Positions 3,723 to 35,602 of a stretch of 39,486 bases of DNA are shown here, in pieces (within the stretch, counting starts at the first letter, position 1; every line of letters begins with the position of its first letter). The DNA is from a virus, in the IMG/VR virus record IMGVR_UViG_3300036900_000151, positions 1 through 39,486 of that record, one strand, 5' to 3'. The position numbers were made by a program, and so were the translations under genes. The notes beneath the pieces were generated by a model that ran no database searches, was not told the origin of the DNA, and saw only the letters and a list, made by a program, of their open reading frames with translations.

Positions 3723-3724
3723 GC

Positions 3725-4246
3725 ATGCCGCTCGGGCCGGACCAGCCTCCGCCGCGGCCCAAGCAGGACCAGAAGAACGAGGTCGTACGTCTGCAGTCGG
3801 AGATAGCTAACGAGGTCTCGCGCGATGCGCCGGAGATCGCTCAGGGTGTTTTCGGCGACAACGCGCGGCATCCAGACATGGTCAACCTCCCGAACGCCAG
3901 TATCGACAACGTGTACCGCCAGAAGTACGAGGCGCAGGATCGTGCCTGGCTCCAGGCCGAAGCTCGGCGCGACCCCGAGCAGTTCATCACGGTTGCCAAG
4001 CGCATCGGCGTGACCATGCCGCAACCTGGGGAACCGCCTGCGGCGATCGCGCCGTCGCAGGCACCTCTCACGGCACCGCCGCCCACTCCGGTCGTGCCGT
4101 CTCCCGTTCCTGCAGCGGTCCCGCCGCCCGCAATGGTGCCTCCCGTTCCACTGCCAACGGCGCCTCCGCTGCAGGCTGGTGCACCGCCCGTGCCCGTCAC
4201 CTTTGGTCCGAACGGACAACCTCTTCCCCCTTCAGGCCTAGGCTGA
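3725..4246 (+). CDS. Hypothetical virion-associated protein with Pro-rich C-terminus
   Basis: A 173-residue protein starting at an ATG 2 bp after the portal stop, with a possible GTG overlap start at 3719. Residues 1-100 are charged and helical (VVRLQSEIANEVSRDAPEIA, then NVYRQKYEAQDRAWLQAEAR). Residues 100-173 are a Pro/Ala/Val low-complexity tail. Its position between portal and the giant internal protein suggests a head-completion or internal protein. I do not recognise a family. Confidence 0.75.
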   Translation: MPLGPDQPPPRPKQDQKNEVVRLQSEIANEVSRDAPEIAQGVFGDNARHPDMVNLPNASIDNVYRQKYEAQDRAWLQAEARRDPEQFITVAKRIGVTMPQPGEPPAAIAPSQAPLTAPPPTPVVPSPVPAAVPPPAMVPPVPLPTAPPLQAGAPPVPVTFGPNGQPLPPSGLG

Positions 4247-4250
4247 GCCG

Positions 4251-7200
4251 ATGCCCGGTACGCTGCTCGCCAGCGACTGGCAGTCATCCGTCGAGGACGA
4301 GCTGCATCGCCACGTCACCGACGCGATCAACGCCGCGACCCAGGCAGCGCAGAACGCGGCTGGTGCGATCCCGCAGATCCAGGCACCGCAGATATCGGTG
4401 CCGACGGTCAACCCGCAAGCGGTCCTGGACGAGCTGAACCAGCACGTTCAGAACATCGTCCAGACTGCGACGCAGGTCGCGCAGCCCGCGGTCGTCCAAC
4501 TCGGCCAGGTGCAGAACGAGTTGCAGAACCACGTCGCGACCGTGCTCGGTGGCGCAGCGCAGGGGCCGTTCACGCCGTTGAACCAGCCACAGCCGCAGCA
4601 ACCAACGTCGGCGCTCGGCCAACCCACGATCACCACGCTGGGCGGCGGCAGCACAGACGCGACGGCACCGCTCGGTGCGCCGGCAGCGGCAGGTGGCGAC
4701 GTGCTTGGCGCACCATCGGCGGACACGACCGCGTCAACGACCGCGGTTCAGACGCCGCAATCGCTCGGTGCCGCGGGGCGCATTCCAGCGAACTACAACG
4801 TCCCGATCGACAAGGGGCCGACCATCTCTCGAGCGCAGGCTGAGGCGGTCGTCAAGGGCACGCCGCTCGAGGGTATCGGCGGTCAGATCTGGGATCTTGG
4901 CGTCAAGTACAACGTCGACCCGGCGTTCGCGCTGTCGGTTGCCAAGAACGAATCGGCGTATGGCGATCCGAACGTCGCGCCATCGCAGAATCGCACGAAC
5001 AACATCTGGGACATCAGCAACGCGCTGTACGGTGGCACGCCAGTGCCTGGCACCCGGTGGGGCCAGTATCCAGACAAGATCACGGGTGCTGAGGCGTTCT
5101 ACAAGCTGATCACGCAGGAGTACTACCCCAAGGGGCAGACCAGCGTCGGCTCGGTGATGTGGGGCCCAGACGGCTCACAGACGCACGCATACGCGCCGCT
5201 GTCGGAGAACAGCGCCGACTACCCGCAGCGGTTGATCGACACGATGGGCAACTATCGACAGTTGCCCGGCGGCACTGGCGGTCAACCATCAACAGCGCCC
5301 ACCGCGCCGGTCACGACGGCTCAAGCCCGAGCTGCTGACCTGGGCTACAGGGACATCTCGCAGTTCGGCGACCAGCAGCTCACACCCGCGGAGGCCTATG
5401 CAGCATGTGGACCGGCTGCCGCTGTCCGATTTGCCGAGCGGTTCGGTCGTCAGCCGACGCTGAGGGAAGCGACCGACCTGGCCGCGAGCGTTGGATGGAC
5501 GGCCCAATCTGGCATGGCCGGGATCTCGAGCGAGCAATCGTTGATGAACAAGCTCGGGATCAAGACCAAGCTGATCGAGGGCCCGCAGTGGGACGTGTTC
5601 GCAAGGGAGGCGCAGACGGGTAATCCCGTCACCATCAGTACCTACGGCAAGAACGGCGGTCACTATTTCTTCGCGGACGCCTTCAACCCGGATACGGGCG
5701 CGTTCCACGTTGGGCAGTCAGGTAAGGATCTGATCGGCGGTTCGGAGTGGATGACGCCAGCGCAGATGCAGAACCTGATGGGCAGTGCCCAGGGCGCGCT
5801 CTTCGCTGACCAGCCGGTGACGCCCGTGCCGAGTACGGCGGTCGCCGGCGGTCCCGCGCCCACCCTGGGGGCGACAACAGGCACGGCAGCGGCACCGATC
5901 AACGTGCCAGGTCCGCAGGCTAAGCCTCCGATTGTGATGGGCCAGAACCAGCCCGTGACGCAGATCGGCGGCGACCAGCAGCAGGGACTCACGCCGATTC
6001 AGACCGCCGGGGACGCCGTCGCGGGCGTGGTCGGCGACATCAAGCGAGCGGGCCAGCAGGCGGTCGCGACGTTGGGTGGCGAGCTGCAGAACCAGGTCGG
6101 CGGCACGGCATCGCAGCTCGGCACCGGCGTCCAGAGCGGCATCAGCCAGGTGCAGAGCACGGTCGGGGGTGCAGCAGACCAGCTCGGCACGGCGGTGCAG
6201 CAGAACGTCGTGCAGCCAGCACAAGCCGTTGCCGCGGCGGTCGCGCCGAACCTGGGCGGCGATGACGCAGAGTTGGCGCGTCGGCGTGCGGCGCTGGATC
6301 AGCCTGGCTCGCCGACGCTTGGCGGTGTCGGCGGTGAGCTGGCGACCGGTCAGCCTGGTGAGCAGACGCCAGGCAGCGTGGTCGGCGGCCTGCTCGGTGC
6401 GACGGGCGGCACGGTCCAGTCACCTGCGGAAATCCGTAGGAACGTCGAAGAGGTCTCGCAGGGGCTGCAGGCCAACAATCCGATTCGCGACGTGGTCGTG
6501 GCTGGCGGTCTCTCGAACATGGTTATCGACCAGGTGGTGCAGAACCCGCTGCTGTTCGTGCCTGGTGCGCCGATGGGCGCGTCGCTCACTCGAGTCGGTG
6601 AGCAGATCGTCGGCGACGTCGCGCCGAACGTGGCGCCGGTCCTGGGGCGGCTCGGGGCCGCGGCTCTCAACGGCGGCGTGCAGAACGCCATCTACGAGAT
6701 GGGACGCGCGGACGCGACCCCGCAGTCGGTCGGTGAGGCGTTCGCGACCGGCGCTGGTCTCGGTGCTGGGCTGGACATCGCGCCAACCGCCATCCTGGGC
6801 ATCGGCAAGGCCGTGCTGAAGCGCGTGCCTGACATTGCCGATGCGGTCGGGCCAGCGGTCGGACAGTTCATCCGCAGCGAGCAGGGCGCGACGCGCATCC
6901 CTGGTCAGGGGCCGCAGCAGGACGTGCTGCACGGTATGGCCGTGCCGCGTACCGGTTACGAGCCTGGCACGCCCGAGCACACGACTGAGACCTTCCTGCA
7001 GGACCAGGCTCGAGCGCAGAACACGCCGAATCCGCAGCTTTCCGCGGCGGACATCGGCGGCCTGCCTGGCATGGCTGGCTCGAGGATGCGTGGTCTCCAG
7101 GAGGTCAGGGACGCTGTCGATGCGGGCCTACCCGCGGCTCGCTGGTATCAGGAGATGGTGCAGCAGGTCCGCAAGGACACGGGCGAGGACATCAACCCGC

Positions 7201-10200
7201 GGGAGGCAGCGGTGTTGATGGGGGCCTTCGGCGGCAACGCCGGAGTCGCTCCCAACTACCACGCCATGTTGAGCGTCTTCGACGCCATGCGTCAGGCGCG
7301 GCCCGACCTGACCGGCTTCGAGAACATGACCGAGCCGCAGATCCAGGCGACGCAGGCATTCAAGGATGTCGCGGCACTGGTGCATGGCGACAAGAGCTAC
7401 GCCGACGACTCGATGCTGGCTCGGGTGATGCGCGGCTACCGCACGGGTGAGATTCCGGTGCCGTCGGGAGCGAAACTCTCGAGCTACACCCAGGACTTCC
7501 TGCACGCGCTGAACGAGCAGTACGTGCCGTACTCGACGCAGGACGTGTGGCAGGGCCGACTGTTCGGCGCGCGTCCCGACGTGCAGGGCGGCAACGGTCT
7601 GCCGAACGTGTCGCAGAGCGACGCGGCGTACCGCACCATGCATGCGCTGACGAATTGGGTCGCGCGTGAGCGGAACCTACCACCCGAGCAGGCGCAGGCC
7701 GCGGGCTGGACGGTCTTCCGCACGTTGTGGACCGACCCGGTCATCGGGCCCGAGTTGCGAAACGACCGCGTCAGCCTGAGCGACGCGATTCGCCAGGGGC
7801 AGCAAGCTGGTCTGCTCGATCCGCGGACGATGGCAGCTGGCGGTCTCGCAGAGGTGACCGCGCCGCGAACGGCCGTGCCAACGTCCTGGGCCAGCAAGAT
7901 CAACGACGTCCGCGAACGCATCCAGAACAACGGCAGCTATAACGCCCCGCCACCGGAGACGGCGACGGCCGTCAACGAGATGGCGCTGTACCACCCGTCG
8001 ATTCAGTCCGCGGCGCAGCAGCGCAGCATTCTAGACCCGAGTGGCTTCCAGTACGGCACGGTGGCTGGGCCCAAGGTGGGCGTGCGCCGACCGGTCGGCA
8101 CCGAGCCAGCGGCCACCTTACGCGACCTGGCGCTGGGCGACCAGCCGGTGCTGCGCGTCAGGGGCGAGCTCCAGGTCGACCCGACGACGGGCAAGATTCC
8201 CTGGCTGCTGCCCGAGCACGCCGTGCAGCAGACCGCGGGGCACGCCTACGTTACGGTGGCCGGCGTTGGCGACGACGCGGCGCATCTGATCGGCCAGCGG
8301 CTCGGCGCGGATCGGTTCAACCATGCTGACCCGACGTCGACCAACACGGGTGGACTGGCGATCGAGCTGGGCTCACGCGCCGACCAGGCCAGGATCAGCG
8401 ACGCCCTCAACGCGGCGGGGCTGCCGGTCCTGCGCGAGCAGGGGGGCACGGGTATTCGCGTTCCGCTGCTCGAGGGAAGGCCTGCGGCGCTGGCGCGTAG
8501 CCTGCAGCAAGTCCTTTCGGATGAGGGCGTAGCGGGTACAATTGGGTACTACACCGGAGACACACATGCCGTTGAATCCCCAGGATCAAGCCGAGTTGGA
8601 CGCGCTCGGGATCAAGCCAGTCCCAGCGAACCATTGGGTGTACCGCCAGGGGACCGCCTTTCTGTCTCCCTCTTCCGGGACGCCCGCGAAGCCGCGTACG
8701 GAGCCCCAGGATTCGTTGCCCCCGGAGGGCGACAACGTGGCGAGCTCGGGCAACTCCCCTTCGGCATCAACGTCGGCGGCGCCGTCGCCGGCGGATACGC
8801 AGGCAACCTAGCTACACCGCAAGAAGCACCGCCCGAAGAACGTCTACGTAATATCGGGCTCGGCGCGACCGCAGGCCTGCTCGGCACGCGCGCGATCACC
8901 GCGGCGCTCGAGCGCAACCGACTGGCGCCGGAGGTCGCACGCGCGGCAACTGAAGGCTTCCGCGCGCCGGAGGTTGGCGCCCGACCAGGCGAGAACCTGC
9001 TGCGCGCGGCGACGGAAGAGCCGACCAACGTTCCCGGCGTCACGCGGCGGACGGAGACCGTCGGCGGCGAAGCGCCCGTCAACATTCCCGAGGCGCAGGC
9101 CGGCGCCCGCACGCTGAGCGACGTCCGCAGCAATCCGCACCTGCTCGCCGAGGCGCGGCCAGGCGAGGCGCCAATGACCGACGACGAGTTGATGGCGCAC
9201 TACGATCAGCTCGATACGCAGCGGCAGCAGGTGGAGGACCGCCTCGCGGCGATCGACGAGCAGCTGCGCAACCCGACGCAGAAACCCGAGCGCCCACCGT
9301 GGGGCGCAGGCTGGACCAACGACCAGCTCGTCACGCTCGCCAAACGTCAGGGCCTCAGCGCCTACGAGCCGCTGTGGTGGGAAAAGGCGGGCCTGCTGTC
9401 GGGCTCGGGCGAGGTGCGCGAGGACGTCGGGCAGTCCGGGCTGGCACGTGGTATGGGCCGTGGCGGAGCCGAGCCGACGCCGACCGAGCTCAGGGCGGAG
9501 CGGGCGCAGCTGGTGCGCGAGCAGACCAACATCCAGGAGGCCGGCGACCAGCTCGCCAACGCCACACCCGGTCAACGCTTCGTGCGGCGTGAGCAGGCGA
9601 CGACCGCGGATCTGCCGTTCGCGCAGGCGGAGGGCCCGCTCGGGGCCGGCGGCGGCCGCGACGAAGGTGCTCGCACGGCGCAGGAGATCGTCACCAACAA
9701 GGGCAGGCTGACCAGCGACGAGGCGCAACTGACCGGCGAGGCTGGCGGCGTCACGGGTCGTGGCATCGTCAACCCGACTGAAGCTGTGCCTGAAGCGCCG
9801 TCGGCAGACACGGTGCGGCGCATGCCGAACATGGACGCGCTGCTCGGCAGGGACATGCCTGAGGTGGCGGCCCAGATCCAGAAGTCAGCGGAGGATAACC
9901 CCGCGCTGTGGGACGCGTACCGGCAGGGCACGATCACCTTCGACTCGCTCAAGAACGACCTGGCCGCGCGTGTCGGAATGAGCAAGGAAGACTGGCTCAA
10001 GACCAAGGTGGGGCAGGCGTTCAATGAGCGTGAGCTCGTCGCGCTGCAGGCAGCGATGGTCGAGTCGCAGAACCGCCAGACGGCGCTGGCGCGCGAGGTC
10101 ATCGCCAGGGGCGGCGTCGATGCGCTGACGCCCGAAGAGCTGGCCTACTCCCTGTCCAGCCTGGTCGACGCTCAACGCCTGGCCGCGGTTGCTCGAGGGG

Positions 10201-12785
10201 GTCGTGCTACGGCTGGTCGGGCGCTCAATGCGCTGAAGATCCGTATGGACGAGGCGCTCGCCAGTTCGATCACCGCAGCCAACACGCGCAAGGCAGCGCA
10301 GCGAGTCGTGGCTCAGGCCAAGCGTGCCGCGGCTCGAGCGGATGAGCTGCTGCCGAAGGCGACCGAGCTCGAGCGAGAGAAGGCAAGAGCGACCGCGGCA
10401 GCGTCCCGTCCGGAGCGTCCAGGCGCGCCGCGAACGCCGCGCAGCATCATCGATCAGATCGCGCAGGCCTACGACGAGCTGGACCGCTACAACGCACTGT
10501 CGCTGCATGAGAAGGCGACCGTGTTCGACCGTCTGCAGGAGCAGCGCGCGGCGAACCAGGCCAAGCGTCGGGCGGCGGTTCGCGGCGCGCCGGAAGAGCT
10601 GCTGTCGGCGCTGCAGGCTGAGCTGCGGTGGGAGCAGAACAACTTCGCCAAGCGCAAGAACACCTGGGAAACGATGGCGTTCATGGACTCCAAAGCGGGA
10701 GAGAACGCAGCGCGAGAGCGGGCCGCGTTCCGCGGCGGGCTGTACATCGAGCAGCAGCGGCGAGTGGCGCGGCTCGCAGCGGACAAGGCACAGAAGGACG
10801 CGACCGCGGCGTTCGACGCCGAAGCGCGCCGACGTGGTCAGCAGTCGGCCAAGGCGCAGCGCCTCCTCGAGGGCATGGGCGGCGTCGAGGTCAACAAGAA
10901 GCTGCTCGGCGAGTTCGTCGCGGCCATCAACGATCCCGACCCGATGGTTGCCGCCAAGTTCCTGCAGGGCACGTCGAATATGTCCTGGTGGAAGCGGGCG
11001 GGCGTCATCCGCATCGCTGGTCTGCTGAGCTCGCCGATCACGCACATGGTCAACATGGGCGGCAACGTCAGCGGCGCGATCGTGGAGGTGCCGACCAGGG
11101 CGCTCGTGGTTGGAATCGATGCGTTGCGCGCGGCGGCGACCGGTGGCGAGCGGCAGGCGTACGCCGGCGAGTTGTGGCCGATGATGAAGGCGTATGGTCC
11201 TGGCTTTCTGGGTGCGCTGCCCGAGGCGGTCCGCACGCTCAAGACCGGCATCACCAGCGAACAAGCTGCCGACCTGAGCAGGATCCACGGTCGCTTCTCG
11301 CCGAACGAAGGCGTCAACCTGGCGGTCGAGGCGCCGCTGCGCGCGCTGCAGGCGGAAGACGTGCTGTTCCGCCAGGGTGCCTACTCGGCACACTCGATGC
11401 GCGTCGCCACGCGGCAGGCGATCCGCGAGGGCTACCAGGGTGCGCAGGTGCAGGGGCGGGCGGCGACCATCCTGAAGAACCTGCAGGACTATCCCGAGCT
11501 GGCGCAGGAGGCCGCGGACGCTGCCGCACGGCAGGTTTTTCAGGAGCGGCGTACGGTGCCTGGTCTGTCGCGCGTGCCTGAGCCAAACGAAGCAGCGCAG
11601 TTCGCCTACCAGCAGGTCCTGCCGTTCGTGCGGACGCCAGCCAACATCACCGCCCAGGGCGCAGGCATGAGCCCGCTCGGTCTACTCGGCGTGGCCCAGG
11701 CGGCGGGCAAGGCGCGTGGTCTGCCAACCGGCTCCGCTTCGGAGCGTGCGGTCAGAGGTCGCGAGGTGCTGCTCGCCGAAGAGCGGCTGGCGCGCACCGT
11801 GATCGGTACCGGCATCCTGGGCGCCGGCATCGCGCTGGGTAGCGCGGGCATGCTCACCGCGGCGTACCCGACCGATCCGACCGAAGCCTCCACGTTGCCG
11901 CAGGGCTGGCGTCCGTGGTCGATGCGGCTGCACGATCCGGTGACCGATAACACGTACTACGTGCCACTCCAGAACATGGGGCCGCCCGGCTTCGCTATGG
12001 CTATGGCCGCGATCCTGACCGATCCTAAACACCGCAACAAGACCGTCCTGGACCCGTCCGAGCAGGTCAACGCGGCGACAGCGATTGGGCGCTACGTCAT
12101 CGACAACACCTTCCTGCAAGGCGTCTCGGACATGGTCGACGCGCTGCACGATCCGAAGACCGGCGCCAGCAAGTTCGCCGAGCCGCTCGCGGCGAGCTAC
12201 GGGCCGTACTCGAGTCTTGCCAGGGAGGCGCAGCGGATGATGGGCGTCGCCTCCAGGAACCCGCACGACGGGCTGGTCGGGCTGATCGAGGCGTTCGAGG
12301 CCAACTATCCAGGGCTCTCGGGCAACGTGCCTGAGGCGACCACGCCACTCGGCGAACCGCGGACGCAGGGCGCGACGGGTATCGGTCGCTACATTCCTGC
12401 GCGCTACGACATCGAGCGCGACGAGCCGACGTTGCAGGCGCTACGCTCCGCGGGCGTGGGCATCCCGCCGGCTCCGAAGGCGATCAACGTCGGGAACGGC
12501 TGGTCGATCCAGCTCTCGGAGGCCGAGCAGGACCAACTCAAGCGGGCCCGTGGCGTGCTGATCCGCGACCAGGTCGCGTCGGTGCTGGCGTCGCCGCGCT
12601 ATCAGCGAGCGGTCGCCAGCGGCGATATCAGCTTTCAGAATCAGCTCATGGCGCAGGCGGTCAGCAACGCGGCGCAGAATAGCAACGTCGACTTTGAGCG
12701 CACGATGACCAAGGCGCAGCTTCAGGCTCGAGCAGAACGGAAGGCAGCGCCCGAGCCGTACATCCTGGGGAGCGCAGCAGACTGA
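4251..12785 (+). CDS. Giant internal/ejected virion protein with transglycosylase-like and C39-like peptidase domains
   Basis: At 2,844 residues this gene takes up more than a fifth of the genome. After an Ala/Gln-rich start, residues ~190-340 look like a lysozyme/glucosaminidase-type domain (VAKNESAYG, candidate catalytic E234). Residues ~370-510 look like a C39-type cysteine peptidase (C386 in YAACGPAAAV, H471 in GGHYFFADAF). A helical Gly/Ala linker and a conserved-looking block (~940-1230) follow, then long charged coiled-coil regions (~1900-2200). The C-terminal third has hydrophobic segments (~2253-2290 and ~2514-2540). Multi-domain proteins of this kind lie between portal and capsid in several podovirus-like groups and are ejected into the cell envelope with the DNA; that role is inferred here. 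ATG 4251 is 4 bp after the previous stop. A second ORF is nested at 8566-8811. Confidence 0.85.
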   Translation: MPGTLLASDWQSSVEDELHRHVTDAINAATQAAQNAAGAIPQIQAPQISVPTVNPQAVLDELNQHVQNIVQTATQVAQPAVVQLGQVQNELQNHVATVLGGAAQGPFTPLNQPQPQQPTSALGQPTITTLGGGSTDATAPLGAPAAAGGDVLGAPSADTTASTTAVQTPQSLGAAGRIPANYNVPIDKGPTISRAQAEAVVKGTPLEGIGGQIWDLGVKYNVDPAFALSVAKNESAYGDPNVAPSQNRTNNIWDISNALYGGTPVPGTRWGQYPDKITGAEAFYKLITQEYYPKGQTSVGSVMWGPDGSQTHAYAPLSENSADYPQRLIDTMGNYRQLPGGTGGQPSTAPTAPVTTAQARAADLGYRDISQFGDQQLTPAEAYAACGPAAAVRFAERFGRQPTLREATDLAASVGWTAQSGMAGISSEQSLMNKLGIKTKLIEGPQWDVFAREAQTGNPVTISTYGKNGGHYFFADAFNPDTGAFHVGQSGKDLIGGSEWMTPAQMQNLMGSAQGALFADQPVTPVPSTAVAGGPAPTLGATTGTAAAPINVPGPQAKPPIVMGQNQPVTQIGGDQQQGLTPIQTAGDAVAGVVGDIKRAGQQAVATLGGELQNQVGGTASQLGTGVQSGISQVQSTVGGAADQLGTAVQQNVVQPAQAVAAAVAPNLGGDDAELARRRAALDQPGSPTLGGVGGELATGQPGEQTPGSVVGGLLGATGGTVQSPAEIRRNVEEVSQGLQANNPIRDVVVAGGLSNMVIDQVVQNPLLFVPGAPMGASLTRVGEQIVGDVAPNVAPVLGRLGAAALNGGVQNAIYEMGRADATPQSVGEAFATGAGLGAGLDIAPTAILGIGKAVLKRVPDIADAVGPAVGQFIRSEQGATRIPGQGPQQDVLHGMAVPRTGYEPGTPEHTTETFLQDQARAQNTPNPQLSAADIGGLPGMAGSRMRGLQEVRDAVDAGLPAARWYQEMVQQVRKDTGEDINPREAAVLMGAFGGNAGVAPNYHAMLSVFDAMRQARPDLTGFENMTEPQIQATQAFKDVAALVHGDKSYADDSMLARVMRGYRTGEIPVPSGAKLSSYTQDFLHALNEQYVPYSTQDVWQGRLFGARPDVQGGNGLPNVSQSDAAYRTMHALTNWVARERNLPPEQAQAAGWTVFRTLWTDPVIGPELRNDRVSLSDAIRQGQQAGLLDPRTMAAGGLAEVTAPRTAVPTSWASKINDVRERIQNNGSYNAPPPETATAVNEMALYHPSIQSAAQQRSILDPSGFQYGTVAGPKVGVRRPVGTEPAATLRDLALGDQPVLRVRGELQVDPTTGKIPWLLPEHAVQQTAGHAYVTVAGVGDDAAHLIGQRLGADRFNHADPTSTNTGGLAIELGSRADQARISDALNAAGLPVLREQGGTGIRVPLLEGRPAALARSLQQVLSDEGVAGTIGYYTGDTHAVESPGSSRVGRARDQASPSEPLGVPPGDRLSVSLFRDAREAAYGAPGFVAPGGRQRGELGQLPFGINVGGAVAGGYAGNLATPQEAPPEERLRNIGLGATAGLLGTRAITAALERNRLAPEVARAATEGFRAPEVGARPGENLLRAATEEPTNVPGVTRRTETVGGEAPVNIPEAQAGARTLSDVRSNPHLLAEARPGEAPMTDDELMAHYDQLDTQRQQVEDRLAAIDEQLRNPTQKPERPPWGAGWTNDQLVTLAKRQGLSAYEPLWWEKAGLLSGSGEVREDVGQSGLARGMGRGGAEPTPTELRAERAQLVREQTNIQEAGDQLANATPGQRFVRREQATTADLPFAQAEGPLGAGGGRDEGARTAQEIVTNKGRLTSDEAQLTGEAGGVTGRGIVNPTEAVPEAPSADTVRRMPNMDALLGRDMPEVAAQIQKSAEDNPALWDAYRQGTITFDSLKNDLAARVGMSKEDWLKTKVGQAFNERELVALQAAMVESQNRQTALAREVIARGGVDALTPEELAYSLSSLVDAQRLAAVARGGRATAGRALNALKIRMDEALASSITAANTRKAAQRVVAQAKRAAARADELLPKATELEREKARATAAASRPERPGAPRTPRSIIDQIAQAYDELDRYNALSLHEKATVFDRLQEQRAANQAKRRAAVRGAPEELLSALQAELRWEQNNFAKRKNTWETMAFMDSKAGENAARERAAFRGGLYIEQQRRVARLAADKAQKDATAAFDAEARRRGQQSAKAQRLLEGMGGVEVNKKLLGEFVAAINDPDPMVAAKFLQGTSNMSWWKRAGVIRIAGLLSSPITHMVNMGGNVSGAIVEVPTRALVVGIDALRAAATGGERQAYAGELWPMMKAYGPGFLGALPEAVRTLKTGITSEQAADLSRIHGRFSPNEGVNLAVEAPLRALQAEDVLFRQGAYSAHSMRVATRQAIREGYQGAQVQGRAATILKNLQDYPELAQEAADAAARQVFQERRTVPGLSRVPEPNEAAQFAYQQVLPFVRTPANITAQGAGMSPLGLLGVAQAAGKARGLPTGSASERAVRGREVLLAEERLARTVIGTGILGAGIALGSAGMLTAAYPTDPTEASTLPQGWRPWSMRLHDPVTDNTYYVPLQNMGPPGFAMAMAAILTDPKHRNKTVLDPSEQVNAATAIGRYVIDNTFLQGVSDMVDALHDPKTGASKFAEPLAASYGPYSSLAREAQRMMGVASRNPHDGLVGLIEAFEANYPGLSGNVPEATTPLGEPRTQGATGIGRYIPARYDIERDEPTLQALRSAGVGIPPAPKAINVGNGWSIQLSEAEQDQLKRARGVLIRDQVASVLASPRYQRAVASGDISFQNQLMAQAVSNAAQNSNVDFERTMTKAQLQARAERKAAPEPYILGSAAD
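8566..8811 (+). CDS. Candidate overprinted gene nested out of frame in the giant virion gene
   Basis: An 81-residue ORF in another frame of the same strand. It has an ATG, a well-placed GGAG (8554-8557, 8 bp spacer) and a TACAAT hexamer at 8537-8542. The N-terminal half reads like a normal protein (MPLNPQDQAELDALGIKPVP...), while the second half is Ser/Pro/Ala-rich. The host frame also reads naturally through here (SLFRDAREAAYGAPGFV), so both frames may be used. The string DALG-x-x-PVP recurs in the zinc-binding protein at 34004. Function unknown; it could still be a chance ORF. Confidence 0.4.
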   Translation: MPLNPQDQAELDALGIKPVPANHWVYRQGTAFLSPSSGTPAKPRTEPQDSLPPEGDNVASSGNSPSASTSAAPSPADTQAT

Positions 12786-20145: not shown

Positions 20146-21852
20146 ATGACCGAATCCCTGCCATCCCTGGTGCCGGTCAGCAATCCCGCGCTGCCGCCGG
20201 CGCCACCTCTGGCGCCGCTGTCACCGGTTCCGCCGCTGGTCGAGAGCACGCCGCCATCGTGGCAGGGACCAATGGGTCCACCGGGGCCTGAAGGTCCAAT
20301 GGGCCCACAGGGGCCGCAAGGACCACAGGGCGCTGCTGGCGCAGATTCGACCGTGCCCGGTCCACCTGGAGCCGACGGTGCGCCTGGTCCACCAGGTGCT
20401 GATTCGACCGTGCCCGGTCCGCCTGGGGCGACTGGTCCGCAGGGCCCCGCGGGGCCGCAGGGCGCCGACTCGACGGTGCCTGGCCCGGCAGGGCCGGCAG
20501 GTGCGACGGGACCGCAAGGTCCGAAGGGCGATACGGGTGCGACGGGTAGCCAGGGCCCGCAAGGCGCGACTGGTCCCGCGGGCAGCACCGGCCCGCAGGG
20601 GCCGACCGGCGCCACGGGGTCGCAGGGCCCACCAGGCCAGGGCGTGCCTGTCGGCGGTACCGCTAACCAAGTCCTCGCCAAGATCGACTCGACGAACTAC
20701 AACACGCGCTGGATCGACGCGACCGCGATGGCGCTCGGCGGCGACCTGAACGGCACGATTGCCAACGGGCATGTCAACCTCCTGACGATCTCCGGCGGAG
20801 CATGGAATGTTGCTGGTGACGTGCACGCCGCTGATCTTTACGCCGTTCGCAGTGCGACCAGCGGTGTGGTGTACCTGGGTAGCGACAAGGTGCATTACCT
20901 GTACTTCGACAGCGCGAATAGTCGCTATCAGTTGCCCGGCGCGAGCGCGGTGTTGCAGGTTGACAGCGGCACGATCAGCTTCGTTGATTCGACCCACCAG
21001 ATCACCAACTCGGGCGGCAACTTTATCTACCTGGCCGGCTCGGGGCAGCACTATTTCTGGGGTACCGGCTCGCCGCAGACGTGGGCAACAGTCAACACGG
21101 GACCGCTCCTTGTCAACGGCACGATGCAAGCGAGCGGTTTAGCAACCTTCAATAGCGGTCTGAATGCTGCTCAGGTCAACTCAACGGGCGGCAATCCAAT
21201 CACCCTCGCACGCGACGCGCGGCTATGGTGGGGTGACGCGAATACGAGCATTCTCGGCTCCAGTGCCGACGCGAATATCTATATCGACACGTGGACAACC
21301 CTCTTCGTGCGGGCCCAGGGTTACACCCAGAAAGTCCTGTTCAAAGTCTCGGGACCGGGCGGCGATGCGACGGTCGGCGGCCTGCTCGCCGTTCCGGCTG
21401 GCGGCGTGAGTAGCGGCGGCAATTACACCGCGCAGGGTGTAGGCAGTAGCGGCTACGCCTTCCAGACTGCCAATGCGGCAGCAGCGTACGGCCAGGGCTA
21501 CGCCAACGCCTGGATTGCCGCCTCCAGCATTGACTTCAAGAAGAACATCCGACCGCTGCGCGACCCGCTCGCCATCGTGATGAATGACCGTCTGCACGGC
21601 ATCGAGTACGACCACGACTGGGAGCTCCCCGCTGGCGCTCAAGCCAACAAGATCAAGTCGGCTGGCCGCGCGCACTCCATCGGCTTCGTGGCTGACTACT
21701 GGCTACCGCATGTGCCGGAGGTGGTTAGCACCGACGAGTACGGCAAGGCGATGGGCATGGACTACGGGCGTGTCGCTGCCATCGTCTTTCAGGCGCTCAA
21801 GGAATACATCGCCAAAACCGATGCTCGTCTGGCTGCACTGGAGGCCCCATGA
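20146..21852 (+). CDS. Collagen-like tail fibre with S74-type C-terminal chaperone domain
   Basis: A 568-residue fibre. Residues ~1-38 are a Pro-rich leader. Residues ~40-163 are Gly-X-Y collagen repeats that should form a triple helix. Next comes a junction motif seen in many trimeric fibres ([20 protein letters not shown]), then beta-rich shaft modules. The C-terminal ~110 residues resemble an S74 intramolecular chaperone: S460 and K465/K466 in [12 protein letters not shown], a mid-region [16 protein letters not shown], and a terminal helix ([20 protein letters not shown]). In the family this domain assembles the trimer and then cuts itself off in front of the Ser using a Ser/Lys pair, and both residues are present here. 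It probably binds the host surface. Confidence 0.9.
20262..20640 (+). repeat. Collagen Gly-X-Y coding repeat
   Basis: About 41 Gly-X-Y triplets rich in GPQ, GPP and GAT. A nonapeptide GADSTVPGP occurs three times (near residues 66, 84 and 105) and interrupts the triplet rhythm, suggesting growth by internal duplication. Length can be expected to vary between relatives through slippage or recombination. Confidence 0.9.
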
Positions 21853-29331: not shown

Positions 29332-29455
29332 TGGTCGATGCCCTCCGACAAGGGTGTTGGCCTCGAGCAGGTCGGCGCCTCTAACGCTGGCCTGCTCTCT
29401 TTGCACCCTCACAGGTTACTGTCAGTGCGCGGTCAATGCAAGTATACTGGGACAT
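29332..29455. promoter_or_regulatory. Divergent promoter/operator region between minus cluster and repressor
   Basis: This 124-bp intergenic region is more A/T-rich near its right end. It holds two perfect 8-bp palindromes, AGTATACT (29441-29448) and ACATATGT (29452-29459, running into the repressor start). TATACT (29443-29448) is a good -10 for the rightward repressor, but no convincing -35 is visible. Leftward, TTGACC (29436-29431) is a possible -35. The palindromes are candidate operators for autoregulation. Confidence 0.55.
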
Positions 29456-29677
29456 ATGTTACTCACCAATGACGCTGATCCGACCCTGCTGGGACGACGC
29501 GTGCGCCAGCAGCGACTCCTCCAGGCGCTCACCCAGACAGACCTTGCCGAGCGTGCCGGCGTCAGTGCCGCGGCCATCATCCGTATCGAACGCGGCACAC
29601 ATAGCGCCCGTCCGAGCACCCTGCGCAAGCTGGCTGCCGCCCTGGGCGTCAAGCCGACCCAGCTCACGTCGGAGTAA
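29456..29677 (+). CDS. XRE-family helix-turn-helix repressor (73 aa)
   Basis: A small single-domain HTH protein. LGRRVRQQRLLQALTQTDLA, then ERAGVSAAAIIRIERG and PSTLRKLAAALGVKPTQL, match the five-helix XRE/Cro-CI fold nearly end to end. ATG 29456 lies only 7 bp after a TATACT -10 and has no real Shine-Dalgarno, so the mRNA may be leaderless, as for lambda cI made from PRM. It sits directly upstream of the integrase and divergent from the minus-strand cluster, consistent with a lysogeny regulator. Confidence 0.85.
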   Translation: MLLTNDADPTLLGRRVRQQRLLQALTQTDLAERAGVSAAAIIRIERGTHSARPSTLRKLAAALGVKPTQLTSE

Positions 29678-29763: not shown

Positions 29764-31482
29764 ATGAGTGTAATCGGTGTCCTGATCCGCAATTCAACCG
29801 CTAAGCAGGTCGGCAACTACCGCTCAGAAGCGCAGTACGACCTGGGCCCGCGCATCGAACAGCGCGGCCACACGATCCGCTACTACGACGAGCAGGGCAC
29901 CTCAGGGTCTGATCTGACCAAGCGCAAGGTCGCCATGCAGATGCTCGATGACATGAAGGCAGGCGTCATCCAGGGCATCGCCGCGTTCGACTTCAAGCGC
30001 CTCACACGCGACGAGTTCGGCGTCGACGGCGGCACGATCGCGCGGCGCATCGTCGAGGCACACGGGCAGTTCCATACATGGGACCGCGAGTACAACCTGC
30101 GCCTCGACGACGATCTGATGCAGTTTCAGTTCCAGTGCTTCATCGCGGGGCTCGACTGGCGCAACATCCGCAACACGCTCTGGAGCGGGACATTCAAGAA
30201 GCTCGAGCGGGAGCCGCACTACATGAAGACGCCACTCGGCTACGTGAATGTGGCTGACGACCGTGACAAGAAGCACGTCGCCAAGAACCCGGAGCACCAG
30301 CACGTCATCGACGCGCTCGCGAGGCTCTTCGACGAGTGCGACTCATTGGCCGAGATCTGCCGACGTCTCAACACTGAGGGACCCGCGCGGCCGGCGTTCC
30401 GCGGTCGCGGTGGCGAGAGTACGCGTTGGATGGTGTACGGATTGCGCTACATCCTGCGCAATACGATCTATACGGGCACCTTCAGGTTTGGCGTCCACAC
30501 CAGGCAGCGTTCAACGGTCTGGGACAAGTTCGCGCTGGATGCCAGCGGCGCGCCGCGTGACTTTGAGCAGTTCCGTCCTGATCTGGCCTATTGGGACCCA
30601 GCCCGCGTCCGTCGCTGGCGGCGCAAGTTCGACAAGCCCGCGAACACGCGCACGATGAAAAGCGGCAACAAGCAAGCGTTGCCCGGCGTGCTCGAGTGCG
30701 AGACGTGCGGCTCGCGTATGATCGGCTTCGGCGCCGGCACCTACGCGTGCTCGGCCAAGGGCGTCGGCCGCGGGACTGACGGCCGGCCCTGCACGGCGCC
30801 CCAGAAGATTCGTGAGTTCGTGGCGCTGCGGCTGCTGCGCGAGGAGTTGCCGAACGTGCTAGCGGACGCGCAGGGACTCGCGGAGCGCGCCCGTGCCAAC
30901 CTCCTGGAGCATGCGGCACCCTCGGCCGCGAAGCAGCGACTGGCGTTCCTTGAGGAGCGCGTCGCTTACATCAGCCAGCAGATGCTCGAGCGCGCCGAGC
31001 TGCAGCAGGCGACCGCGCTGCTGGATCGCATCACCCAGGCGCAGCTGGAGATCGCCACGCTGAAGGAGCAGGTCGTCGACGAGGAGGACGCTCGGCTCAA
31101 CGACGAGGAGGTCGCGGCCGTGTGCGACCTGCTCCTGAGCAACCCGATCGCCCTGATTGACGGCATGTCGCCGGAGCGCCAGGGCCGCGTCTACACCATG
31201 CTGTTTGCGAACGTGCGTATCGAGACGCGTGGGTTCGGTGGCGGGCGTCAGTGGCGGCTGCGGTCCTACACCGCGCGCCTGGTCGACGAGCCGCGGGTCA
31301 CGCCAGAGGCACCGTGGGCGCGCTGCCCGCACCCGAGAACCACCTATCCGGACGGCGAGCGGCCGGTGCTGATCTTCGGCGAGCGTGCGCCAGGAAGGGG
31401 TGCAAGCGACATATCAGCACGCGGATATGTGGACTACCTACCTTCATTGGTTGAGCTAGCTGGCGCGCTCTCTTTGGGTTGA
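29764..31482 (+). CDS. int: Large serine recombinase (phage integrase)
   Basis: A 572-residue site-specific recombinase for integration and excision. The resolvase-type catalytic domain starts with GVLIRNSTAKQ: S11 is the nucleophile and R9 a catalytic Arg. R79 and R82 in FKRLTRDEF match the second Arg cluster. A recombinase domain follows (~residues 150-290, including RYILRNTIYTGTFRFG). The zinc ribbon uses C312-x2-C315, C329 and C343. The coiled coil is at ~395-450 (AKQRLAFLEERVAYISQQML). Domain order and length are typical of large serine integrases. It marks the phage as temperate; the attP site is expected next to this gene but not identified. Its last 49 bp are overlapped by a minus-strand ORF. 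Confidence 0.95.
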   Translation: MSVIGVLIRNSTAKQVGNYRSEAQYDLGPRIEQRGHTIRYYDEQGTSGSDLTKRKVAMQMLDDMKAGVIQGIAAFDFKRLTRDEFGVDGGTIARRIVEAHGQFHTWDREYNLRLDDDLMQFQFQCFIAGLDWRNIRNTLWSGTFKKLEREPHYMKTPLGYVNVADDRDKKHVAKNPEHQHVIDALARLFDECDSLAEICRRLNTEGPARPAFRGRGGESTRWMVYGLRYILRNTIYTGTFRFGVHTRQRSTVWDKFALDASGAPRDFEQFRPDLAYWDPARVRRWRRKFDKPANTRTMKSGNKQALPGVLECETCGSRMIGFGAGTYACSAKGVGRGTDGRPCTAPQKIREFVALRLLREELPNVLADAQGLAERARANLLEHAAPSAAKQRLAFLEERVAYISQQMLERAELQQATALLDRITQAQLEIATLKEQVVDEEDARLNDEEVAAVCDLLLSNPIALIDGMSPERQGRVYTMLFANVRIETRGFGGGRQWRLRSYTARLVDEPRVTPEAPWARCPHPRTTYPDGERPVLIFGERAPGRGASDISARGYVDYLPSLVELAGALSLG

Positions 31483-31583
31483 GCCGCCTTCTTCTCGGGC
31501 CGACTCAGGATCTCGCGGACCTCGTCCGCAAACAGGCGCGCGAGCTCGTCGAGTAGATCCTGCCGCTGGGGCTTGTCGGCCAT
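31434..31583 (-). CDS. Small charged protein antisense to integrase 3' end (49 aa)
   Basis: A short ORF starting at ATG 31583 and ending inside the integrase gene. The protein is helical and charged (MADKPQRQDLLDELARLFAD, then EVREILSRPEKKAAQ) with a Ser/Ala/Asn tail. The start lies 2 bp after a 53-bp element that is repeated upstream of the early operon at an almost identical distance from its first ATG, which strongly supports real expression. It might act as a peptide, or its transcript might interfere with integrase mRNA. Confidence 0.5.
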   Translation of the reverse strand: MADKPQRQDLLDELARLFADEVREILSRPEKKAAQPKESAPASSTNEGR

Positions 31584-31585
31584 AG

Positions 31586-31638
31586 CGCCAGTCTGCGACG
31601 TGGCGGCGTCTAACTAAAAGGCTGAAGATGGGTCCAAT
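31586..31638 (-). promoter_or_regulatory. Inverted copy of the 53-bp early promoter-like element
   Basis: Read on the minus strand: ATTGGACCCATC (31638-31627), six variable bases, CTTTTAGTTAGACGC (31620-31606), seven variable bases, TCGCAGACTGGCG (31598-31586). Three conserved blocks at fixed spacing match the copy at 32988-33040, with 42 of 53 bases identical by hand alignment. It points leftward into the 49-codon ORF and the integrase 3' end. Confidence 0.75.
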
Positions 31639-31646
31639 GTTGGCTC

Positions 31647-31660
31647 ACGCCGCACGGCGT
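31647..31660. terminator. Short GC stem-loop downstream of the PAS-like regulator
   Basis: ACGCCG and CGGCGT form a perfect 6-bp inverted repeat around a 2-base centre, about 20 bp past the regulator stop. It could help end leftward transcription before the inverted promoter element, or be a small operator. No U-run is present. Confidence 0.3.
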
Positions 31661-31679
31661 AGCGGATGCCAGGATGATC

Positions 31680-32456
31680 TCAGGTCTCGGCGTCCCCAGG
31701 AAACTCGTACTTCGGCAGCGTACGGTTCAGAAAGTCGCGCACCAGCTCGGGGTGCTCGTTGAGCATCAGGAGGGTGTCGACCAGCTCGCCGACGCCGCGA
31801 CCCTGAACCGCGCGGTAGGTCTCCGCCAGTAACGAAGGCGGCACGCGCTTCATCTCGAAGAAGAGATCCGGCTGCACGTTGAACACGTCAGCTTCGGGTA
31901 CGTACGGGGCCCCGATCGGGTGGGCGCACACGTAAAAGCGGTCGGTCTGCTCGCCCGTGTAGCGCACCGACATGTCTGTCACCTGGCAGTGTCCGTCGGC
32001 GACGTCGATCCAGGCGCGCTCAACGCAGGCGACCTTGAACGTCGGGTCCTGCTTGAGCCGCCGCATGCATTCGATGACCTGGTCATCCATCGCCACCCCG
32101 TGCCGTAGCAGCTCGATGGACGGCTGCCCGACGATGTCCTCGGCGGGTCGGCCGAGTGCCCTGGAAACCGACTGGCGTGCATACGTGAGATCGAACGGTG
32201 GCTGGCCGAAGATGACCCAGACGAAGTCGTGCTCGTCTTCTGGCAGCAAAGGCCATGGCAGGTTGTAGTGCTCTTCGTAGTTGTAGAGCGTCTGCTTGGA
32301 CATGCCGAACCCGGCGTCCTCCGGCGAAGGCGAGTCGAAGCCCTGAATAAACCCCGTCCTTGACGGATGCGGGATGTGTTTTGCGCGCCGCCGCGTGTCG
32401 TACCGCTCGTATCTGCAGAGAACGTCTTCAACGGTCAAAGAGGGTCTGCCTGTCAC
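31680..32456 (-). CDS. PAS-like regulatory protein (258 aa)
   Basis: From GTG 32456 (GTG 32486 is an alternative). Residues ~1-75 include a possible HTH-like stretch (FGMSKQTLYNYEEHYNLPWP). Residues ~90-185 resemble a PAS domain: a helix with VSRALGRPAEDIVGQPSIEL, then CMRRLKQDPTFKVACVERAW, and strands through DGHCQVTDMSVRYTGEQTDR and FYVCAHPIG. The C-terminus is helical (LVDTLLMLNEHPELVRDFLN). PAS domains sense ligands or mediate protein contacts. A sensor-type regulator in the lysogeny region would be unusual. The family call is tentative. Confidence 0.55.
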   Translation of the reverse strand: MTGRPSLTVEDVLCRYERYDTRRRAKHIPHPSRTGFIQGFDSPSPEDAGFGMSKQTLYNYEEHYNLPWPLLPEDEHDFVWVIFGQPPFDLTYARQSVSRALGRPAEDIVGQPSIELLRHGVAMDDQVIECMRRLKQDPTFKVACVERAWIDVADGHCQVTDMSVRYTGEQTDRFYVCAHPIGAPYVPEADVFNVQPDLFFEMKRVPPSLLAETYRAVQGRGVGELVDTLLMLNEHPELVRDFLNRTLPKYEFPGDAET

Positions 32457-32661
32457 CCAACCGCACCCCCAAGCTCTGGCGCCCACTGCGCGCCTGCGGG
32501 AAAGCTTTCAGGGCCGGTCGGAGAGCGACGCGGCCTCGCCCTCTAACACTGCCTGATACCTGCGTCTAAAGAAAAGGCTATGAAAGAGTCACGTTACGGT
32601 CCAAAGAAGGGACTGTAAAGCAACGACGCAACATCCCGCTCGTGTGATGCCGGCAGGGACG
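32457..32661. promoter_or_regulatory. Upstream region of the PAS-like gene with partial promoter-element copy and hairpin
   Basis: No gene is seen here. On the minus strand it carries TTTGGACC (32605-32598) and GCCTTTTCTTTAGACGC (32578-32562), matching blocks 1 and 2 of the 53-bp element but with a 19-base gap in place of about 6. Overlapping it is an inverted repeat, TTACGGTCC (32594-32602) against GGACTGTAA (32610-32618) with one G-T pair. This probably is the promoter/operator of the PAS-like gene, about 105 bp upstream of its start. Confidence 0.55.
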
Positions 32662-32946
32662 TTAGTGGGACTCGGGAGGGACGCGCTGCAAGCGGGCGGG
32701 CGAGACGCGCAGAGCGGCCGCGAGGCGGCGGACGCTGCTGATGCGGATCTCTTGCTGCGCTTCGGCGCGCATGACAGTCTTGCGTCCGACCCGTGCGCGC
32801 TGGGCGAGTTCTTCCTGGGTCAGTGCGCGCTCCAGGCGGATCGCTCGTAAGCCGGGGACGAGCACCGCTGTCATGCTGGGGGCCCGCTGCGGTGTCAGTA
32901 CAGGTGCGTTAGTGTCCGTCTCTGGTGGCACTAATGTGTCGGTCAT
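32662..32946 (-). CDS. XRE-family helix-turn-helix regulator (94 aa)
   Basis: ATG 32946 is preferred because GAGG lies 9 bp before it; ATG 32961 would add five residues. The N-terminal ~35 residues are Pro/Thr-rich and flexible. The rest is a Cro/CI-type HTH (VPGLRAIRLERALTQEELAQ, then RARVGRKTVMRAEAQQ and SSVRRLAAALRVSPARL). It is divergent from the early operon across a 97-bp gap containing the right copy of the 53-bp element, the usual place for a Cro/CI-like regulator acting on an early promoter. Confidence 0.82.
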   Translation of the reverse strand: MTDTLVPPETDTNAPVLTPQRAPSMTAVLVPGLRAIRLERALTQEELAQRARVGRKTVMRAEAQQEIRISSVRRLAAALRVSPARLQRVPPESH

Positions 32947-32987
32947 CGTATCACGCCTCATCTAGGCAAGTCCCAGGCCGTCTCAAG

Positions 32988-33040
32988 ATTGGACCCATCC
33001 TTACACTTTTAGTTGGACGCTCGGCCATCGCAGACTGGCG
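32988..33040 (+). promoter_or_regulatory. 53-bp early promoter-like element facing the early operon
   Basis: ATTGGACCCATC (32988-32999), CTTTTAGTTGGACGC (33006-33020) and TCGCAGACTGGCG (33028-33040) occur at the same spacing as the inverted copy at 31586-31638. The first early ATG (33044) follows 3 bp later. The conserved blocks do not fit a standard -35/-10 pair with a 17-bp spacer, so some may be repressor operators. It lies between the XRE gene and the early operon, where a switch promoter is expected. Confidence 0.75.
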
Positions 33041-33043
33041 GGC

Positions 33044-33217
33044 ATGAGCGAGTCCGAGGCGCAGGAGCAGGTCGAAGGCAAAGTCATCTACGAACCCCGT
33101 CGCGTGTGGAAGGCGATCGAGCGCCTCGCGGCGGGTGAGCGGCGGCACTGGCGCGACCAGGCGGCCATCCTGCTCGAGCGGGCCGTGGCGTCGGATCAGC
33201 TCGAGCCCGTCGCCTGA
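33044..33217 (+). CDS. Small ribbon-helix-helix-like protein, first early gene (57 aa)
   Basis: The sequence has a strand-like segment (GKVIYEPRRV) followed by two helices (WKAIERLAAGERRHWRDQAA, then ILLERAVAS), the layout of Arc/MetJ/CopG DNA-binding proteins, whose second half often reads like 'A..L..ll..a'. It is the promoter-proximal early gene, which suits a transcriptional regulator. At this length the call is tentative. Confidence 0.6.
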   Translation: MSESEAQEQVEGKVIYEPRRVWKAIERLAAGERRHWRDQAAILLERAVASDQLEPVA

Positions 33218-34515: not shown

Positions 34516-34988
34516 TGGCGCGGGTACCGGCCTTCGTCGCGGGCCTGGTGTGCGGCCTGGTGCTCGGCACCGCGGTCATCATCGGCCACGCCGACGACGT
34601 GCAGGCCGAGGTCCTCGCGGCCGCCGCGGCGGCACACGTCGACCCGACCGACCTGGCCGGCGCGGTCTCGAGCACCGGCCTCGACCCGTGGATCTACTTG
34701 CGCGCCGTCGGCGAGCTGGACCCGCCCGCACCCAGCCCGCTGACGGCAGCCAGCCCGCGCGTCGCGTGCATCATTCGCGTCGAGTCTCGAGGCGATGCGC
34801 ACGCGGTGAATCCGCGGTCCGGCGCGGCGGGGTTGGGGCAATTCCTGTCCTCTACCTGGAAAACGACCCCCCAGGGCCGCGCCGGACTGTCGGTGTTCGA
34901 TCCGGTCGCCAATCGCGCCGCCATCGACTGGATGGTGGCCAACGGCCGTGCGGGCGAGTTCGACGCCGTGCGGTTCAGCGGGTGCTGA
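34515..34988 (+). CDS. Secreted resuscitation-factor-like transglycosylase (157 aa)
   Basis: The N-terminal hydrophobic segment (VPAFVAGLVCGLVLGTAVII) looks like a signal anchor. After an Ala-rich linker, residues ~82-155 form a lysozyme-like domain: ACIIRVESRGDAHAVNPRSG with candidate catalytic E90, GAAGLGQFLSSTWKTTPQGR, then VFDPVANRAAIDWMVANGRA. This resembles Rpf/transglycosylase-like domains that cut peptidoglycan glycan strands. It lies in the early operon rather than the lysis cassette. It could remodel the wall during infection or act in late lysis with the cysteine-peptidase-like protein. Confidence 0.8.
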   Translation: MARVPAFVAGLVCGLVLGTAVIIGHADDVQAEVLAAAAAAHVDPTDLAGAVSSTGLDPWIYLRAVGELDPPAPSPLTAASPRVACIIRVESRGDAHAVNPRSGAAGLGQFLSSTWKTTPQGRAGLSVFDPVANRAAIDWMVANGRAGEFDAVRFSGC

Positions 34989-35602
34989 TGCTGCATGGCA
35001 TGGCTCTTTGTGCCGGGGCTGGCGGACTCGAGCTCGGACTCAGGATCGCTCTCGGCGACGACTACCGCTGTGTGGTGTACGTCGAACGGGAAGCCTACGC
35101 AGCGGCAACTCTCGTGGCGCGGATGGCAGATGAGGCCCTGGATCCGGCACCTGTCTGGGACGACCTGGCCACCTTCGACGGCAAGCCTTGGCGTGGCGTC
35201 GTGGATCTCGTGTCTGCGGGGTTTTCGTGCCAGCCCTGGTCGATCGCCGGCAAGCGCCTCGGGCTCGGCGACGAGCGATGGATCTGGCCGGACATTGCTC
35301 GCGTCCTTTGCGAAGTTAGACCCGAGTGGGTCTTTTTGGAAAACGTCGGCGGGCTTGTTCGAGGGGGATTGGAGCAAGTTCTGCGCGACCTGGCCGCACA
35401 GGGGTTCGATGCGGAATGGGATTGCGTTTCGGCGGCCGAAGTTGGGGCGCCGCAGCTTCGCGAGCGGCTGTATATCCTCGCGCACCACCCTCTGGACGAC
35501 GCCGACGCTGGACGACAGTGGCGGACGGACCACGCAATACGCCCAGGGCGGGACTGCCTTGGGCGTACAGGCCAGGTACTGGCAGACGCCGACCAATGCT
35601 GA
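34988..35602 (+). CDS. C5-cytosine DNA methyltransferase, catalytic part (204 aa before frame break)
   Basis: Methylates cytosine C5 using SAM. Motifs in order: I (MALCAGAGGLELGL, SAM binding, residues 5-18), IV with catalytic Cys (SAGFSCQPWSIAGKRLG; Ser replaces the usual Pro before Cys), VI (FLENVGG) and VIII (GAPQLRERLYILAH). The frame then stops at 35602 before any complete target-recognition domain or motif X. Those parts continue in other frames downstream. ATG 34988 overlaps the lysozyme stop (TGATG). Likely roles are self-protection from host restriction or epigenetic marking. Activity depends on how the frame break is resolved. Confidence 0.82.
   Translation: MLHGMALCAGAGGLELGLRIALGDDYRCVVYVEREAYAAATLVARMADEALDPAPVWDDLATFDGKPWRGVVDLVSAGFSCQPWSIAGKRLGLGDERWIWPDIARVLCEVRPEWVFLENVGGLVRGGLEQVLRDLAAQGFDAEWDCVSAAEVGAPQLRERLYILAHHPLDDADAGRQWRTDHAIRPGRDCLGRTGQVLADADQC

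Follow-up and report, generated by a model that had tools for sequence, protein, structure and literature searches.

The duplicated element and its genomic context

The DNA analyzed here is the 39,486-nucleotide (nt) IMG/VR record IMGVR_UViG_3300036900_000151 (the whole stretch is hereafter called the window), a member of an uncultured temperate phage family. It carries a 53-nt promoter/operator-like element in two inverted copies, one of which faces the early operon, while the other faces a small open reading frame (ORF) overlapping the gene of a large serine integrase. The small ORF, encoding 49 amino acids (aa), is a candidate recombination directionality factor (RDF). The features of the locus are as follows:

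29456-29677, plus strand: XRE1, an HTH_3 protein encoded upstream of the integrase, with TATACTGGGACATATG preceding its start; second repressor candidate
29764-31482, plus strand: large serine integrase of 572 aa (Resolvase and Recombinase domains; PHROG integrase)
31434-31583, minus strand: 49-aa ORF, candidate RDF, convergent with the integrase gene and overlapping its 3' end by 49 nt
31586-31638, minus strand: left copy of the element (blocks of 12, 15, and 13 nt), facing the 49-aa ORF
31680-32486, minus strand: protein of 257-268 aa encoded behind the third copy; likely start at 32453; no family match
~32562-32604, minus strand: third, partial copy with block 2 core CTTTTCTTTAGACGC, upstream of the 31680-32486 ORF
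32662-32961, minus strand: XRE2, an HTH_3 protein divergent from the right copy, changing with the element type; likeliest repressor
32988-33040, plus strand: right full copy, oriented toward the early operon
33044-33217, plus strand: first ORF of the early operon (57 aa), behind the right copy; conserved in the related phages L045, L048, and L053

With an N-terminal Resolvase domain, a Recombinase domain, and more than 400 aa, the integrase belongs to the large serine integrases. The early operon, on the plus strand, begins with the 57-aa ORF and later includes RecT-like and replication-initiation-like genes.

The coordinates of both full copies and the 6- and 7-nt spacers between their blocks, as given in the first-pass annotation, were confirmed on the sequence. 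The inverted arms (31586-31642 and 32984-33040) comprise 57 nt each and are 79% complementary. Blocks 1, 2, and 3 read ATTGGACCCATC, CTTTTAGTTnGACGC, and TCGCAGACTGGCG, respectively; all three match between the copies, although block 2, previously described as identical, contains one mismatch (14/15; TTAGACGC vs TTGGACGC). A start codon lies 2 nt past the left copy and 3 nt past the right copy, in agreement with the ATG reported close behind both. Exactly two matches to the 53-nt pattern are present in the window, compared with none in 100 dinucleotide-preserving shuffles, and the left copy, used as a blastn query against the whole record, retrieves the right copy with E = 2e-10. The repeated element thus precedes more than one gene start, above chance, as expected of an operator/promoter set. 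The third, partial copy, absent from the earlier description, has TTGGACC placed 11 nt farther upstream than in the full copies and is present also in L045 and L048. The protein encoded behind it has a weak relative in L164, and the AlphaFold model of its 268-aa form was unusable (mean predicted local distance difference test score, pLDDT, of 32).

Exchange of elements and small ORFs between relatives

A search of relatives for the inverted pair showed that it is kept in close relatives: L045 and L048 retain the pair together with the middle copy, and the fragment L053 retains the right copy. Among these phages, left copies are most similar to left copies and right copies to right copies, which indicates that the pair predates their divergence. 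Homologs of the window 49-aa ORF are found in L045, L046, and L047.

Two relatives represent a natural swap and its reverse. The integrase of L047 is 96-97% identical to that of the window and its small ORF 88-90% identical, but its XRE genes and immunity region are different. The two sites of L047 are likewise inverted relative to each other, but their sequence type differs from that of the window and consists of TGTCC direct repeats with GGACA upstream; CGCAGACTGG and the start codon are retained ahead of the small ORF. The reverse case is found in L048, which shares the element type with the window and encodes an XRE2 protein 90% identical to that of the window; its integrase is only 28% identical, and its small ORF, likewise located behind the left copy, is unrelated. 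Together, these two phages indicate that the element tracks the repressor genes, and that the small ORF accompanies the integrase. In L047, an extra rightward gene block (8010-9726) lies between the left site and XRE2, and its first protein (303 aa) appears ParB-like by eye.

Recurrence of the layout in eleven lineages

Further phages were found with two search patterns, the second element type and block 3 followed by a start codon, and their regions were searched for a twin of the site. Eleven lineages were counted: the window, L045, L048, L164, L047, L079, L167, L169, L166, the L165 class, and L046. In all of them, one copy is directed at the early operon, and its inverted counterpart at a small ORF of 49-82 aa that overlaps the phage's only serine integrase gene. 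The lineages represent six types of element and eight of integrase, with likewise eight of small ORF, and the element type changes together with the neighboring repressor genes, encoding XRE or ribbon-helix-helix (RHH) proteins, as operators would. The related phages are mostly ~40 kb in size, and 12 of 13 related records contain a single PF00239 gene.

Beyond L047, the TGTCC element type is found in L079, L167, and L169, where a third copy lies deeper in the early region. L164 carries a variant of the window element type, with XRE2 56% identical, whereas in L166 an Arc-like/RHH protein replaces XRE2 and GAATAAATnGnnATAAA occurs in three copies. The integrases of L165, L168, and L170 are near-identical; the twin search in L165 and L170 yielded a common CACTGACCGGACTGACGTC, near which an RHH protein is encoded and a weak PAS match is found. 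The latter, in L165 (2000-2788), is a sub-threshold match in a 262-aa protein adjoining the RHH protein in the immunity region; this PAS-like protein might sense a signal. In L046, the pair (CTGAC..TGACGGG..CACACT, 30/40 nt) lies ahead of the small ORF and the first early-type ORF.

The strength of these pairings varies. Left-versus-right local scores are 31-34 within genomes of the window type, 19-23 in L165 and L170, 17 in L166, and 16-21 in three of the four TGTCC phages, whereas shuffled sequences score 6.8 on average and 14 at the 99.9th percentile. Comparisons between copies of different types give mostly 5-14, and the higher of these values are due to the CAGACTGG core common to the types. 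With one mismatch allowed, the TGTCC motif is found three times in L079, against 0.01 expected, and the pairing in L169 is based on its motif. Counting all matches over 65 nt discriminates poorly, since 3-16 of 150 random pieces did equally well in several lineages and 67 of 150 in L169; we therefore relied on position, motif tests, and local scores. A scan of the 65 nt ahead of the start revealed no clear pair in L046. The pair emerged in a 120-nt scan with local scoring; as one or more of 120 random pieces matched its score, position carries part of the case for this lineage.

A direct scan of IMG/VR for the element returned 42 stretches, among which only the related contig L016 has it in this context; the remaining stretches looked like chance matches. 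L054 and L055, found as XRE2 matches, proved to be unrelated loci, and L171, with block 3 before a long frame, was set aside because a paired copy was not seen. No integrase relatives were found in 84,980 species genomes, among INPHARED phages, or in six metagenome-assembled genomes (MAGs) carrying a related terminase. Terminase relatives (41-46%) are mostly found in Chloroflexota MAGs, which makes a Chloroflexota host only a lead.

Anatomy of the element

Block 3 of the window comprises CAGACT followed after 6-7 nt by the start codon. The general form of this arrangement, CANACT, 6-7 nt, and a start codon without a Shine-Dalgarno sequence, is shared by all left copies except that of L046 and by right copies of all types except TGTCC; XRE1 genes of the window type have TATACT, 7 nt, and ATG. 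Leaderless transcripts are expected to have a -10-like hexamer 6-7 nt ahead of the start codon, and block 3 looks like the -10 region of such a transcript, even though the CANACT hexamer does not fit TANNNT. The proposal that all blocks are under selection can be refined: block 3 is the start/-10-like core found in nearly all types, whereas blocks 1 and 2 are immunity-specific.

In the region ahead of XRE1 (window 29380-29458), where TATACTGGGACATATG precedes the start, L045 has an extra TATACTG ~28 nt upstream, and the same holds for L048. This additional TATACTG near the XRE1 start may be an autoregulatory direct repeat.

The small ORF as a candidate RDF

Comparison of the 49-aa ORF with its L046 homolog, limited to the part not shared with the integrase gene, shows 23 of 44 changes at third positions (p = 0.007), a pattern indicating that it is under coding constraint as a protein. 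Across the lineages, the small-ORF type follows the integrase type and not the immunity region, as would be expected of an RDF encoded and changing with its serine integrase. Since a serine integrase needs an RDF partner once the lytic repressor lets go, we propose that the 49-aa protein is the RDF of the adjoining integrase. In ten convergent lineages, the small ORF and the integrase gene overlap by 10-198 nt. The small ORFs match no RDF family in Pfam or PHROGs, which counts against this assignment; however, known serine-integrase RDFs, such as SprB and TP901-1 orf7, reportedly have few homologous sequences and vary in size and gene position (PMC11891168), and a missing family match therefore says little.

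Alternative explanations

The first-pass annotation had ascribed to the left copy the purpose of silencing integration by antisense RNA. According to this explanation, the left copy would mainly produce RNA over the integrase 3' end during lytic growth, and in the ten convergent lineages a left transcript must indeed overlap that end over the length given above, so that incidental antisense RNA may be formed there. As the main function, it appears quite unlikely. In L165, L168, and L170 the left copy is directed through its small ORF into the integrase in sense orientation, the L165-class small ORF (3249-3452) preceding the integrase gene (3404-5254) on the same, plus strand; the 49-aa ORF is constrained as a protein; and the putative transcript start is tied to the start codon in every lineage. 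Silencing of the integrase on induction would also work against excision, and the antisense purpose is thus not supported. Judged from the compared sequences, the conserved feature is the small ORF under the element and not its antisense relation to the integrase. An immunity function of the left gene (Cro-like or anti-repressor), sharing the early operator and only incidentally placed beside the integrase, would agree with the finding that the small ORF carries the operator type of the early operon in every lineage. We regard it as unlikely, since the window and L048 agree in XRE2 and element type, yet their small ORFs are unrelated, whereas the window and L047 differ in immunity, yet have the same small ORF; a gene that follows the integrase and not the immunity region speaks against such a role, and the small ORFs have no helix-turn-helix or RHH match.

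The repeat could also be the DNA-binding site of a dual excisionase/regulator, similar to phage 186 Apl, which binds both att and early promoters (PMC7498355), instead of an operator of the lysogenic repressor. The location of one copy near the integrase and one at the lytic switch, as well as the direct-repeat character of the TGTCC type, would suit such a protein, but the left copy differs in type between the window and L047 despite 96-97% identical integrases, and both copies stand at a fixed distance from the start codon, making this explanation very unlikely. Chance or a recent neutral duplication is highly improbable: two-copy repeats do arise by duplication, but the shuffles leave zero copies expected by chance, the similarity of left to left and right to right copies marks the pair as old, and the layout recurs with unrelated sequences in other lineages.

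Proposed mechanism

The preferred explanation is that of a common operator. Blocks 1 and 2 of both copies would form the operator of the lysogenic repressor that the phage itself encodes, for which the divergent XRE2 is the most likely candidate. In the lysogen, this repressor would hold the left and right copies off. Upon induction both would fire, the right copy starting the early operon and the left copy producing the 49-aa candidate RDF, which would turn the adjoining serine integrase from integration to excision. Within this model, we infer repressor binding, the direction and start of transcription, and RDF activity. The earlier idea of a promoter/operator-like element, duplicated in inverted orientation and common to the early operon and the integrase-side gene, is supported by our analysis, and one shared repressor is plausible, the element type changing with the repressor genes across the eleven lineages. 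We consider it rather probable that immunity-specific operators and a leaderless-type start place the candidate RDF under control of the lytic-gene repressor. The inverted copy probably lets one repressor trigger both lytic awakening and excision from the host chromosome.

Several observations weigh against this model. XRE1 changes with the element type as XRE2 does, and the repressor is therefore not singled out. The left-right local score is weak in L164 (12) and L169 (9). The overlap with the integrase gene reaches 168 nt in L164 and 198 nt in L166, and these ORFs may thus not be real genes. Because the small ORF overlaps the integrase gene, both travel together anyway, and co-segregation alone is no proof of joint function. 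Right copies of the TGTCC type lack the CANACT start, and a search for a consensus sigma-70 promoter found none.

Other regions of the window

Outside the locus, one open reading frame of 2844 aa (4251-12785) lies in the structural region of the window. A 568-aa ORF (20146-21852) with collagen-like Gly-X-Y repeats near the N-terminus is probably a tail or fiber protein. FSCQPWS and ENVGG motifs recognized by eye at 34550-35602 suggest a C5 cytosine DNA methyltransferase.

Relation to known systems and significance

Control of lytic and excision functions by a single repressor is textbook logic: lambda xis, P2 cox, and TP901-1 orf7 are excision genes under the lytic/lysogenic repressor and are located within the early operon. 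Multi-copy operator/stoperator sets occur in temperate phages, for example in mycobacteriophage L5. The phages described here resemble L5 in carrying several copies of a putative repressor site in one genome, but differ in having two or three copies, one of them always at the integrase-side small ORF. They share with lambda xis, P2 cox, TP901-1 orf7, and 186 apl (PMC7498355) the switching on of an excision function, here a candidate one, together with the early lytic genes; unlike in those phages, the candidate is detached and located beside the integrase, with an inverted copy of the early control element to itself. A small RDF gene (here a candidate) near its serine integrase is also found in the sprA/sprB system of SPbeta, where the RDF gene is located near attP, and SPbeta likewise has a multi-copy repressor element in one prophage, SPBRE, bound by MrpR; MrpR, however, is a recombinase-fold protein, in contrast to the XRE or RHH proteins found here, and the available passages of these sources do not place sprB under MrpR (PMC10516654, PMC8270828). 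Our literature search, which did not reach most subscription titles, found no account of an operator twin that is detached, inverted, and located beside the integrase, with conservation across unrelated integrases and repressors. Such a duplicated operator looks like a new variation on the known excision logic.

Running a serine integrase in reverse requires an RDF. A 2025 review described the identification of RDFs as a complex challenge, homologous sequences being few and gene loci widely diverse (PMC11891168). In the phages studied here, a candidate RDF is pinpointed in each genome by regulation instead of homology, and their mosaic structure represents a natural promoter-swap experiment in which operators follow repressors and small ORFs follow integrases. 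It is an evenly balanced question whether, in this family, a swappable integrase and RDF cassette is placed under the resident immunity system by an inverted operator copy with a common leaderless start. If true, the twin of an early operator beside a serine integrase would reveal the RDF directly, with eight new RDF types here; if confirmed, the finding would provide eight integrase/RDF pairs and a simple rule to find more.
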